The position numbers were made by a program, and so were the translations under genes. 64,000 bases of DNA from Obelidium mucronatum (lineage: Eukaryota; Chytridiomycota; Chytridiomycetes; Chytridiales; Chytriomycetaceae), in assembly GCA_025765595.1 (NCBI GenBank), contig JAIVFH010000048.1, positions 1 to 64,000 of the forward strand, read 5' to 3'. The notes beneath the pieces are model-generated. The model had not been told where the DNA came from. It was given only the letters and a program-made list of their open reading frames with translations, and did not search any database. Positions 16,609-23,153 of this stretch are shown one piece after another. The first letter of the stretch is position 1, and each line of letters begins with the position of its first letter.

Positions 16609-17736
16609 AATGGCTGGCCAGAATCTTGGTGCTACCCACTGGACTGTCGACGACTCCAAGCGCTTGCTACCAATTGTCAAGAAGAACCCTGGCATGAAAG
16701 GAGCAGGAGTAAAGCCATGGACGGCTGGTTTGGGAAGTTCAGTGCTTCTTGCTTGAACTCCAAGTTGAAAGTCTGTCAAACTGCTCTTCAAAAGAATGCT
16801 GGTAAGTTCTTTATTGTTGTGTGAGTTAGGAGTTAGTTTCTTCCTGACATCTGTTCTATTTTAAGATTGGGAGCCAGGGACCAAGAAGCCACCACCTGAC
16901 ATTGCTGGACACCTGAGACAACAAGATGACAAATCTAATGACGACGACTATGAAGATGACTCAGATGTTGAAAACTTTGTGCCTTCTCTGCTTCAGGAAG
17001 TTAACGGTGCTCCGCCAAGCCCCCACCTGCAAAGAAGCGTCGTCAGACTGCCCCAACTGTTCCAATCCCAGCCAGTCCAAAGTTTACTGGCGTGGATCCA
17101 TTTCTGATTCAACGCGTCATGGGTGGCAAGAACTGGAAGAAATACTGTGCTCAAGAAATCCATGAGTACAATGCAAAGATGGGATACAGACCTACTCTGC
17201 CTACTGTGACGGCACCACCTCCTGCAACTCAAGTGCAATCATTGGTCTATTCAAAAGCAGGAGTCAAAGCAGCAAAGAACTTTCACTCCAACCTTCGTCT
17301 TCATGAGGTCGTTTGGTTCTATGATGCTGGATCAAAGCTGTGGAAGGTGATCGTGTTTTTGCGACTGATTCACGATACTACTTTTGTAATTTCAGTCTCA
17401 CCTGATGGCAGAAAGCTGCTGTACAACATCACCGTCCAACATTCAGAGTCTTCTTTCTACGTTGACCCACGTGACAAGGGTGCTCAATTGGCTTCAACTC
17501 AAGCCATCATCGGGTATTTCGGAAATGATCCTGGAGCTGAAGAGTTTGTCTACGAAGTGAATATGCCTGAAGCAGTTGACTCAAATGAGCTGGAATCTTG
17601 TTTTATTCACACCCTTGTGAAGACGCGGGATGTTCGCAATGGTCATGAATTAATGGCGAAGAAGAATGTAGCAGTTGCTCAAACCTACTTGGTATCGGGA
17701 CAGAAGTCGGAGCAGCGTTGTAGTACCCGGTCTTGA
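16609..17736 (+). CDS. Unrecognised two-exon gene with two frame breaks
   Basis: The ATG at 16609 begins MAGQNLGATHWTVDDSKRLL. A frame change near 16718 and an intron (donor GTAAGT near 16801, acceptor TTTTAAG near 16865) lead to an acidic stretch and then, after another one-base change near 17012, to KPPPAKKRRQTAPTVPIPAS, which looks like a nuclear-localisation segment. The last 215 residues are open to the TGA at 17736 and contain FVISVSPDGRKLLYNITV. I recognise no family. It may be a damaged gene or an intact gene with assembly indels. Confidence 0.4.
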
Positions 17737-18006: not shown

Positions 18007-21000
18007 TCAAGGGAATGTAGGATTCAGATTCAGCGGCTTATTTTCATCAGCAAGAGTATTAATTGTCTTTCTTGATGCATTGAAGCTTCTCAAGTTGCTC
18101 CTTGTGCTAGCATTCAATTTTTCAATGGAGCTCTTCTTTCCTGATGCAATCATGGTTCTCTTTCTTGTGACTGTCTGAGTTTGTGATTGACTTTCAGTGT
18201 TAGAATCAGTGAAGCCACTTTTGCTGCTTTTGCTCCCATTCAAGCTTGCTTTTCGAATAACTTGACCAATAACTTCTTTATGCTTTTGGTAGTTTCCTTG
18301 GATCCATCTTATAATGTGGAGGACAGGTGGCAAGAAAATGGCAAATCCAATCTCTGCAAGTGCAAAATTGGATACTCCATATTGGTCTGTAAACTGACGA
18401 AGAGCAATCATTGCCAGGATTCCAAGAGCAATTTCTCGATTTAGGTAAGCCTCCAAGTGGTTGGCAAATGGCTGCCAATAGATCCGTGTTCCACACAATC
18501 CAGATAAAACAATAATGTATGTGTTCATTTGAACCAAGCCTATTGTGAAATTATTTTAAACTTAACGAAATTCCTAAGTTTTGTTGAGATGCAGTCTCAC
18601 TTGGATACCGTGACATCATAGCAAACAGAATTGATATAACACCCTTCTCCACAATTGTCACAGGCAACATATAAAACATCTCTGGTTTGAAAATAATGTA
18701 TAAACATTGAAATAGTTTCTGAATTGGCGTCAATCCCTCCTCATCATATACAATCAAATCTGCTTTCCAAAGTTTATAGAGAACCAAACTAATGAGGCAA
18801 GGTAGACCAACAATCATTGCAATTAGCACTACCACAGCCAATGCTGCTGCTGCAGCATGCTGGGAGCTAAAGCACTCTACTTGTGGAACCTGACTCAATA
18901 CATTCTTTCCTTCAATTTCTGTGCATTGCAATCTGTAGTGACAATTTTAGTTTGACATTTTTGATTCATATGGTGAGGCTGACAGATCAGAAACTCACAA
19001 AAGCAAGCTGCTGTCAATCAAAGGCATTGTAACAAAAGTCATAACAATGATAATAGCTCTGAAACAAATTAGGCTGACAGATTCATGGCGCAAATGCTCA
19101 GGTGCCCAACTCATTAATATTGAGTGTGTTTTAGGAAAACGTGCATTCAGTGCTCGCAATCCAAAGTAAATGGTAACAATATAAACCAAAATCAATGATG
19201 GCAAAAAAAATCTGAAGAGCAGCTTATTGATTCCTGATAAAGGCAGTGGACAGTCAGTTACAAATCCATCCACATTCAATGAAGCAATGGACAAGAATGT
19301 AGAAATTCCAGGAACATTAAGAATCCCATTCACTTGAGTCTCAAATATGTATCGAGCCACTTGAAAATAGAAAAACAGCAATTCCACAGTTGGTGCTTCT
19401 TCATAGGGTAACAGAAGGAGCGCAAATGCACAGACAAATGCCAGCGCCACCACAGCATAGAAACTGGCGCCGCCAGCTGATCCACATTGATGGCATTCAC
19501 TTCCCCACAAGTAAAAACCTTCTTCAGCACACTCTGTGCATAAAATTCCTTTGAAATTGTGGGCACATGTCAAGGCTGGACAGCTGTGTTGGTGACAGCA
19601 TGATGAATGCATTGGGCAAGTGTATGCCACTGGGATGTCTGTTCTATTTGGCATCCAAAGCCCTTCCAATACATTGACTGTTAAGCCACCTTGGCAATCA
19701 AAGTTGTTTGGACAAGGCTAGGGATAAATAGAAGAGTCAGGCCTCATTGTGAAGAATTGATTGGATTTTGAACATACTGCACATTGCTGAGTGTTATTAG
19801 GTTGCCAATTGTAACTGCCTATAGGACAGGAGATGCATGAGTACGCTGCCCCTGTTAAATATCGACCCATTCCAATAGGACAAGAAACTGGGCAAGAAGG
19901 AGTTAGACAGAAAAGAATATCTCACTTAATAGCAAGAACAAGATGTACCAACGGATTTGGGAAGTGCAGGAATCCACGAATCCCACAAATCCTGATTGTT
20001 TTTCAGCCACAAGCAAGCCACATGAGCTGCATCCAACGAATCATGTGTCATGGCCTTGAGCATTGCGTTTATTTGGTCATCCGGTATTTGATATTTTGTG
20101 ACAAATGAATTGAGTTCAGGAAAATCTGCAACAAACTTCAATGATGCCACTTTTTGAAGAATGCTGGATTGTGGGTCTGTTGTTAAAACTTTGGACATGT
20201 CTGTTTATAGATGTTCCAAAAGAATAGTTTCAGATTCATTTGTTGGTGAAATAATGATGTACCTTTTGCAAAAGCTGCATATTGAGAGGGATTATTATTT
20301 GGAAAGAGCACTTTTGTTAAGTTTGTGTTGGCAACAAACTTTGTTGGAGTCCAATTAAAAAGCAATATTGCCTTTTTTTGCATCAATGGATTCCTGGAGA
20401 ATACTTTCGGCCCCAAATCCAAGAAAGTTGATCACCACAGGCAGTTTCAAGCCGTCAATCAGCCGCTGAAAAATGTTTGTGGAGTATCCTGGATCGTAAT
20501 GCCATAGTTCTATGCATTTACTGCTGGGGCTCAGGCATTGTTTCGGAATGTATGACTTTGGATTGACATAATACAATTCACTTTTAGCACAGTCATTCGA
20601 TCTGCAAAAAAAATAGAATAGAATTACCCCGTTTACACAAAGTCCTGGTAACGAGTCACATTCCGGTTTTCCATCAATTAGAATTCGTGGACCAGTTCCA
20701 AAAGCAGGAAAGATTGACCGAGACTCAGGATTCAATAGAAACCTCCAAAAATCAAGAGACCAATCGGGATACTGATCAAGGAGATATGTTGGAATATAGA
20801 GACCAATGTTTCCATTATATCTTAAAAAAGTAGAGAAGTAAATCGCTTCTTCAAGAACATCAAATTTAGCAAAAGGTCACAAACCCTGAAGCTCCCAAGC
20901 TTACTGCCACTTTATCAGTTTGTGTAAGCTGGACAAAATTTGTAAAATCTTGGGGCCCTTTGGTTTAAATACAGGTTTGTCAAAATTTTGCCAAGCAGAA

Positions 21001-21508
21001 GTAAAATTGACTCACACAATTCCATTTCCAAATCAACGGTATTGTGCTCAAATTCTGGTCCCAAAATGTATTGGATTCTCTGATAAAGAAAAATATCAAT
21101 ATCCAATAAATTTAATAAAACAGTACCGTTACAACTTGAACTCTTAAGTTAGGGAGGAAAATGGAAAAGTTATATTTTATCGTAATTCAAGAAAAGGCAT
21201 AATTTATACTCCATTCACCTGTATCCCATTCCTTCTAGCAAGTACTGACCTACGTAGCTATTCAACATTGAACTTTCCCACGCGTCATATAAAATTGTTA
21301 TGGGCCTCTTTGAGGCTGTGTAGAGCGATCCATCAGGATTCTTCAAATTATTCCACCCTAGATTAGGAAGCTGACAGCGTGGACCGTTGTAAAATTGATT
21401 GTTGTTAGAATCAACATTATTCTCTGTCCAGTTGACGGCAGCCGCAAGGGCTGACAAAGGGGAATAAAAAATTATTAAATTCCAGAGCATCGATCCGGCG
21501 ATCATCAT
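18007..21508 (-). CDS. Multi-membrane receptor with OpuAC-type substrate-binding ectodomain
   Basis: The ATG at 21508 starts a signal peptide (MMIAGSMLWNLIIFYSPLSA). The ectodomain reads like a glycine-betaine/proline (OpuAC, type II) periplasmic binding protein: RPITILYDAWESSMLNSYVG, then RIQYILGPEFEHNTVDLEME, a conserved-type LWPQ, and later DSLDAAHVACLWLKNN. A 16-nt microexon (21142-21127) and a spliced TGG codon keep the frame. A Cys-rich block follows (CPIGMGRYLTGAAYSCISCP; CTECAEEGFYLWGSECHQCG), like TNFR/ephrin-receptor repeats. About seven to nine membrane segments come next (for example FYAVVALAFVCAFALLLL and ALAVVVLIAMIVGLPCLI), then a Ser-rich basic cytoplasmic tail. The likely role is sensing a small extracellular solute. 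Exon structure is from my reading of splice sites. Confidence 0.7.
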
Positions 21509-21708
21509 GCGCGGTGGGCTTTATACGTGTCACGGCGGCGAGTTTGCTCGTTTTTTTTTTTGACTCCTTGCCCAACGAAATTGTCACTCTATCGCAAATC
21601 CCAAAAATTCAGTTAAACACTTCACTATTTTTACTTTGAGTCCTTTTACTATTCAAACCAAAGGAAAAGGCCATGTCTTTTATTTCCTCATAAATAATTG
21701 AAGTCCAA

Positions 21709-23153
21709 ATGTATCGATCATTCAAAACACGCAACATACTTCAGATATTTGGGTTCGGAGTAGTCGTCACAACCTCTCTGAATCTGGAAAACACGCGTTT
21801 TCGGGGCTCATTCAACTGGTTTGGGCCAAAGCGATTGCATTGCGAGTCTATCCTTTGGCCAACCTGGTCGCAACCAAAACGGCACACATGTGTTTGCAAA
21901 AGTCGAAACTTTGTTGCAGACGCAGCAGAAAAAGTTCTTGAGTCTGTGGTCAATATTATGCTCGAGACTGGTAACGATTTGTGATGTGCTAAAGAGCTGT
22001 TTGCTGAGTGCATTTTGAGATAACAGAAGTCTCCGGATATTTTCTCTTCAAAAGTAGTTTGCTCTCGCGGATCTGGTTTTATCGTTGATGCAGATGGACT
22101 GGTGCTCACGAATGCCCATGTGGTACAGGATTGCACTGAGAAATCCAAGGTGCAACTGCTGATGCGTTCAAGTATTCAAAGCTAACGGATTCCCAGATTA
22201 TAGTTACCCTTGCGGACGGTCGAGAATATCCCGCCGTTATTCATGCTGTGGATTTCCTCTCTGACCTTGCAGTCCTCAAAATCACTCCAAGGTCAACAGA
22301 TGTTGCTCCGAACCTTACACCTGTAACTCTTGGATCAAAAAATGAAATGAGGTAAGGAACGCCCTCATATGAATTCGAAAGTTAAGAAAGGGCATTAGAG
22401 CCGGAGACTGGGTTGTATCGATTGGCAATCCATTTGGTCTGCAAAATACAATTACGGCTGGAGTTGTATCTTCTCAACGGCGCAAGAGCTCTGACATTGG
22501 TGCTTTGGATTCACGCGTCGAATATCTTCAAACAGATTGCATTATCCACAGTGGAAGCTCTGGTGGCCCATTGGTCAATTTAGATGGAGAAGTTATTGGC
22601 ATCAATACTATTCGGGCTGATAGCGAAGGAATATCTTTTGCCATCAAGATTGATCATTCTTTGGATATGATCAAACAACTAATGGAATTTGGCAAAATTA
22701 CTCGACCTTACTTTGGGTTTGGAATGGTCTCGTTGACGCCATATGTTTGGCAGCAACTTCGTGTACAAACTCCACAACATCTACTGCCCCGGACAGAATC
22801 TGGAATTCTGATAACATCGGTAAAGCGCTGCCCTCTCATCTTTTTTTTTGGCTGATTTATCCCCAGGTTGAAGTGGATTCTCCTGCTTTCCGTGCGGGTT
22901 GTTTGGAAGGAGACGTTATTGTTGAAGTCAATGGACAGACGATACAATCGGCGTCTAAGGTATTTTTAAAGCCGTTTTTCCGGCAGCAACTAAAAATTCT
23001 ACCAGCTTCTGAAAGTGATTGGTCTCCAGGTGAGAGATCCTGTTCAAATGCGGGTCAATGCGAGTGGTTTGTAAGGTATCCGCCACGTCAGGCCAAGAGA
23101 GTTGTGAGGATAAAGATATCACATTGATACTTCAACCAACTGAAAAGCAATAA
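21709..23153 (+). CDS. HtrA/DegP-type serine protease with PDZ domain, probably mitochondrial
   Basis: Exons read are 21709-21970, 22020-22149, 22182-22351, 22399-22819, 22867-22959 and 23006 onward, with a last 49-nt intron before the short final exon. The N-terminus is basic and amphipathic (MYRSFKTRNILQIFGFGVVV), suggesting mitochondrial import. The trypsin-like core has the catalytic triad: His in LTNAHVV, Asp in LSDLAVLKI, Ser in HSGSSGGPLVN. The usual GNSGG reads GSSGG here. A PDZ domain follows (SPAFRAGCLEGDVIVEVNGQ) and ends ITLILQPTEKQ. HtrA2-type proteases degrade misfolded proteins. The 32-nt second intron is unusually short and should be treated with care. The stop lies 7 bases from that of the convergent neighbour. 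Confidence 0.85.

Follow-up and report, generated by a model that had tools for sequence, protein, structure and literature searches.

A Venus flytrap ectodomain joined through a neck to a membrane bundle is usually read as the signature of a class C G protein-coupled receptor (GPCR). Metazoan members with NCD3G (mGluR, CaSR, TAS1R) combine a type I flytrap, a Cys-rich neck and a 7tm_3 membrane bundle. In early-diverging fungi, type II modules on class C receptors are described in two reports: 7tm_3 receptors with OpuAC (six proteins of Allomyces macrogynus) or with another type II domain, the latter also in Spizellomyces (PMC3251606), and, in gut fungi, type II ectodomains resembling sugar-uptake binding proteins on about half of all class C GPCRs (PMC5168858). 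Here we describe a gene of Obelidium mucronatum, located at 18007..21508 on the minus strand of a 64,000-nucleotide window (contig JAIVFH010000048.1, positions 1 to 64,000), which encodes a type II ectodomain, a Cys-rich neck and a multi-pass membrane domain. An earlier interpretation of this DNA (the sequence-only reading) had seen in it a receptor built from a bacterial-type binding module. Since type II modules on fungal class C receptors have been published, the binding module is not unprecedented; it is the differing membrane core that sets the protein apart. The receptors of PMC3251606 were retrieved by 7tm_3 and are reported to be without NCD3G, whereas the Obelidium protein has no 7tm_3 match and does have a Cys-rich neck. 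No report of OpuAC on a non-7tm_3 core was found in the open-licence literature; as far as could be found, what is new is the core itself and the fact that flytrap types have been exchanged on it. A published scheme sorts fungal GPCRs by their Pfam domains and by the prediction of seven helices (PMC12842992), and a core without 7tm_3 would therefore fall outside it.

We consider it probable that the gene belongs to a family of plasma-membrane chemoreceptors of chytrids, in which an OpuAC flytrap binds an onium compound in a four-Trp cage and a neck relays binding to a core that is not of class C. In the proposed mechanism, the OpuAC module, on the secreted side, would close as a flytrap on a small methylated onium compound, the candidate ligands being quaternary ammonium or sulfonium compounds such as betaine, choline, carnitine or a dimethylsulfoniopropionate (DMSP)-like solute. 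Four tryptophans would cage the ligand, the neck would pass the closure to the core, which probably has nine helices, and the core would then change state and signal into the cell. If this is true, the flytrap-neck-bundle plan can be built on another membrane module, methylated osmolytes have a candidate sensor in chytrids, and onium compounds become a testable class of ligands for receptors that are at present annotated as hypothetical proteins, ephrin-receptor-like kinases or GABA-B receptors.

The ectodomain (residues ~66-392, exons 1-7, 19953..21313; all features of the gene lie on the minus strand) is of the OpuAC type, a periplasmic binding protein of type II. In the final model of about 957 amino acids (aa) it matches PF04069 (OpuAC) with 50.5 bits (E 2.9e-13) against a cut-off of 21.2, as the sequence-only reading had led us to expect. 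An earlier gene model that retained the 72-base intron 5 scored 50.3 bits, and a single open frame by itself exceeds the cut-off with 25.5 bits. The predicted fold of the ectodomain is that of onium-binding substrate-binding proteins. OpuAC was the sole ectodomain match of the 957-aa protein in Pfam at E ≤ 10, a threshold that applies to all Pfam negatives given below for this protein; the type I (ANF) flytrap was absent. The four OpuAC matches listed for the Obelidium genome all lie within the 12 loci of the family described below.

Among the closest known systems are the substrate-binding proteins DmpX (DMSP-binding, 7yle) and TmoX (binding trimethylamine N-oxide, TMAO; 4xz6), which are bacterial, soluble and serve ABC importers. 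The published TmoX cage consists of W55, W102, W177 and W222 with E131 and F220 (PMC8918994), and that of DmpX of W35, W84, W152 and W202 with E113 and Y200 (PMC10030565). All four tryptophans are present in the 957-aa protein, one of them placed by spacing. Alignments identify W77 (21278..21280) as the equivalent of TmoX W55/DmpX W35, W124 (20956..21016, its codon split by intron 3) as that of W102/W84, and W280 (20351..20353, in the motif F-N-W-T-P) as that of W222/W202. W230 (20502..20504) is the probable equivalent of W177/W152, assigned by its distance to the next cage tryptophan alone, which is 50 residues here, 50 in DmpX and 45 in TmoX. In a 27-row alignment of the 957-aa protein and 26 relatives (numbered with the prefix P), tryptophan occupies cage sites 1 to 4 in 18 of 21, 22 of 26, 20 of 25 and 22 of 26 rows with a letter, and the full cage is found in 12 of the 19 complete rows; the site of F220/Y200 holds F or Y in 24 of 25. 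This tally leaves aside P0001 (a duplicate), P0015, P0017, P0032 and P0033 (without ectodomain) and four proteins with an ANF ectodomain. It supersedes a 22-row alignment without P0014, P0030, P0031, P0034 and P0035, in which 11 of 16 cages were full and the Glu of the bacterial pockets appeared in 0 of 21 rows. We read the pocket as probably of the onium type, with its polar half changed, and the cage strengthens the earlier idea of an osmolyte sensor.

Exons 8 and 9 encode the Cys-rich neck (19472..19887), which is ephrin-receptor/TNFR-like and holds 15 Cys in 120 residues. Its Ephrin_rec_like match in the 957-aa protein scores 17.5 bits, under the cut-off of 23.1; the same family is matched by 22 of 28 relatives at E ≤ 10 (best E 4.7e-5). 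NCD3G was not matched by the 957-aa protein at E ≤ 10, and its matches in 5 of the 28 relatives (best E 6.8e-4) are under the cut-off where a score is given. The neck may differ in this from that of mGluR, CaSR and TAS1R, which the protein resembles in its succession of flytrap, Cys-rich neck and membrane bundle.

The multi-pass membrane core spans residues ~514-875 (18256..19468). In a structural model of the paralogue P0015 it has nine long helices, three of which are weakly hydrophobic. No GPCR family, 7tm_3 (PF00003) included, matches the 957-aa protein in Pfam at E ≤ 10. Likewise, 7tm_3 was not found in 16 relatives scanned one at a time, nor among 25 of the 26 families listed for 28 relatives, the remaining family having one member. 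A profile-profile comparison (hhalign) of the core with class C receptors from the Obelidium genome gave no match (probability 0.2%), and none of the 7tm_3 matches listed for the genome (150 of 175 candidates scored) lies inside the 12 family loci. What the sequence-only reading observed is confirmed, and its interpretation is supported in part. The three-part plan of binding module, Cys-rich neck and membrane part stands as first proposed, as does the statement that the membrane part resembles no GPCR family, which is borne out by both Pfam and the profile-profile comparison.

Three homolog searches, which score proteins sharing short words (two of them covering the best 8000 and 7997 candidates), yielded at least 35 proteins, namely 34 relatives and the gene's own NCBI model, P0001. 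They come from 12 genera: Obelidium, Rhizoclosmatium, Podochytrium, Chytriomyces, Siphonaria, Entophlyctis, Irineochytrium, Dinochytrium, Zopfochytrium, Blyttiomyces, Phlyctochytrium and Physocladia. Obelidium (Chytridiales), Irineochytrium and Zopfochytrium belong to the Chytridiomycota by taxonomy look-up, and we take the remaining nine to be chytrids as well. In the Obelidium genome we delimited 12 family loci from the matches, on nine contigs (one each on C48, which holds the window, and on C72, C121, C301, C82 and C36; two each on C5, C9 and C288), and ectodomain and core matches occur together in all 12; the C9 and C288 pairs have near-equal scores and may be duplicate contigs. In other genera, the domain order of the 957-aa protein recurs in single proteins. 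Together with the 12 loci, these support the fusion of ectodomain and core that the sequence-only reading had assumed.

In four of the 28 relatives (P0020, P0022, P0024 and P0025, from Irineochytrium annulatum and Chytriomyces hyalinus), neck and core are the same but the ectodomain is ANF_receptor in place of OpuAC, which the sequence-only reading could not have seen. When 28 cores were arranged in a tree, the ANF proteins fell in two positions; the well-supported branches of this tree force at least two label changes, and a single change suffices in 0% of 200 bootstrap trees. One core thus accepts both type II and type I flytraps, and the ectodomain type has therefore changed at least twice: the flytrap on a core without a class C match has been swapped between two binding-protein folds. 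The tree is midpoint-rooted and shows the exchange without its direction; P0019 and P0021 have long branches and their placement is tentative. The gene at 18007..21508 clusters with three Rhizoclosmatium proteins (96/96). P0013, P0016, P0031, P0032, P0033, P0034 and P0035, which cover less than 75% of the core, and the duplicate P0001 were omitted from the tree. At least four proteins that bear the OpuAC label in it do not themselves reach the OpuAC cut-off: P0015 and P0017 are unmatched, and P0026 (18.4 bits) and P0030 (12.1 bits) score too low. P0015 starts inside the last part of the OpuAC domain, and P0017 lies on C121, whose locus has ectodomain matches. The database records of P0020 (I. 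annulatum) and P0022 (C. hyalinus) name a GABA-B receptor, yet their core is non-7tm_3.

Several observations weigh against an onium chemoreceptor. E131 of TmoX hydrogen-bonds TMAO and E113 of DmpX contacts DMSP via water (PMC8918994, PMC10030565). This Glu occurs in 0 of 25 rows of the 27-row alignment, the site holding mostly I or V; recognition must therefore differ from that of TmoX and DmpX, whose Glu is replaced in the Obelidium protein also. Individual cage tryptophans are missing at site 1 in P0002, P0007 and P0016, at site 2 in P0003, P0007, P0011 and P0034, at site 3 in P0018, P0021, P0026, P0029 and P0030, and at site 4 in P0003, P0007, P0014 and P0030. In the 22-row alignment the Trp columns stand at the 80th-89th percentile of ectodomain conservation, well kept, with others higher. 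A chemotaxis study of four chytrids that parasitize marine diatoms found osmolytes (compatible solutes), glycine betaine included, to attract weakly, and its authors dismissed a major role for most of these compounds (PMC5334607); the species studied there are different ones, and a compound can be sensed without chemotaxis towards it. The copy of the gene in the window carries one frame slip. With regard to the core, fold searches against the PDB gave no significant match, and PF06011 (TRP) was matched in 2 of 28 relatives at noise level (best E 0.024).

One possible specification of the chemoreceptor reading, compatible with it and sharper, is that the core is a ligand-gated, TRP-like channel, in which the flytrap gates a cation pore and the receptor is ionotropic. 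A BFVD fold search with the core gave E 2.8e-4 to a viral protein, and this match suggests that the core may be like that of the fungal TRP-like proteins (PF06011). The viral protein is, however, named TRP by its record alone, the root-mean-square deviation of the match is 13.5, and no pore motif was identified. PF06011 was not matched by the 957-aa protein at E ≤ 10; P0026 scores 10.7 bits against a cut-off of 28.5, and such matches are no stronger than noise matches to DUF families. To our knowledge, no member of the PF06011 family carries an OpuAC ectodomain. We lean towards a channel-like (TRP-like) core that does not act via G proteins, mainly on the strength of the one structural match, and regard the channel as a tentative proposal. 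Equally tentative is a wider form, that of a separate flytrap-receptor superfamily with a nine-helix TRP-like core, which would have arisen in chytrids independently of class C GPCRs but on their three-part plan, would bear both flytrap types and would serve flagellated fungi as an ionotropic osmolyte sense.

We prefer this channel-like core to a second scenario, in which the protein is a very divergent class C-like GPCR whose seven-helix bundle lies beyond the power of profile methods and couples to G-alpha subunits, of which Obelidium has many. Such a hidden GPCR is unlikely given the lack of 7tm_3 in the 957-aa protein, in the 16 single scans and in the 25 families, the hhalign probability, the absence of the 150 listed 7tm_3 matches from the 12 loci, and the nine long helices of the P0015 model. 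Less probable still is an osmolyte transporter with a tethered binding protein, similar to the fused substrate-binding domain of OpuA; no permease or ATPase family, as in an OpuA-type ABC importer, was found in the 957-aa protein at E ≤ 10, and a long Cys-rich neck and a Ser-rich tail are unlike OpuA.

The gene comprises 11 exons, at 21508-21219, 21142-21127, 21079-21016, 20957-20885, 20820-20628, 20555-20263, 20200-19949, 19887-19778, 19717-18999, 18932-18601 and 18539-18007, and its start and stop codons agree with those of the sequence-only reading. The ten introns are 47-76 bases long, each with GT..AG ends. The position of intron 5 (20627-20556) was set by homology to relatives; its 72 bases (20556-20627) were considered as coding, their frame being open, and rejected since they have no counterpart in relatives. 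The start codon and a signal peptide (residues 1-24, 21437..21508), predicted from hydrophobicity (hydrophobic residues 7-25, mean 1.65), precede the ectodomain, and the core is followed by a Ser/Thr/Lys-rich, presumably cytosolic tail with the stop codon (18007..18255), in which an S-I-E-K-L stretch is common among relatives.

The frame slip, which the sequence-only reading had not mentioned, lies at a run of seven A (20373..20379). The NCBI model P0001 (BDR26DRAFT_489201, Obelidium mucronatum; 688 aa) begins just after it, agrees from its residue 3 with the exon translation after residue 271, and lacks most of the ectodomain because of the slip. In the Rhizoclosmatium relative P0035 the protein is unbroken at the equivalent position, and a second copy of the stretch was not found in the Obelidium genome; the slip may stem from the assembly or be a genuine lesion. 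Decay of this copy into a pseudogene, or a fusion created by the gene model, is the least probable explanation of all, the slip and the truncated P0001 being offset by 957 residues with no in-frame stop on either side once introns are removed, by ten GT..AG introns, and by the same order in 12 of 12 loci and in relatives of other genera.

Next to the receptor gene, a 243-codon open frame on the plus strand (17005-17736) converges on it and has no Pfam match at E ≤ 0.01. The divergent neighbour on the other side (21700-23130, plus strand) carries a trypsin-like (Trypsin_2) domain across more than one open frame and is HtrA-like by eye. Most fungi have few G-alpha genes. The Obelidium genome gave 147 matches to G-alpha (PF00503), many of them clustered on few contigs (C1, C7, C22, C42, C66, C249, C488 and others), which suggests dozens of genes. 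Its class C GPCR repertoire is also very large, with at least 150 7tm_3 matches (150 of 175 candidates scored), and ANF_receptor is matched 60 times; both are exon-level and not gene counts. On two contigs a family locus is followed, about 5 kb downstream, by one of these ANF_receptor matches (C5:184526-185032 and C301:15755-16258), and this parallel suggests that a block has been duplicated.
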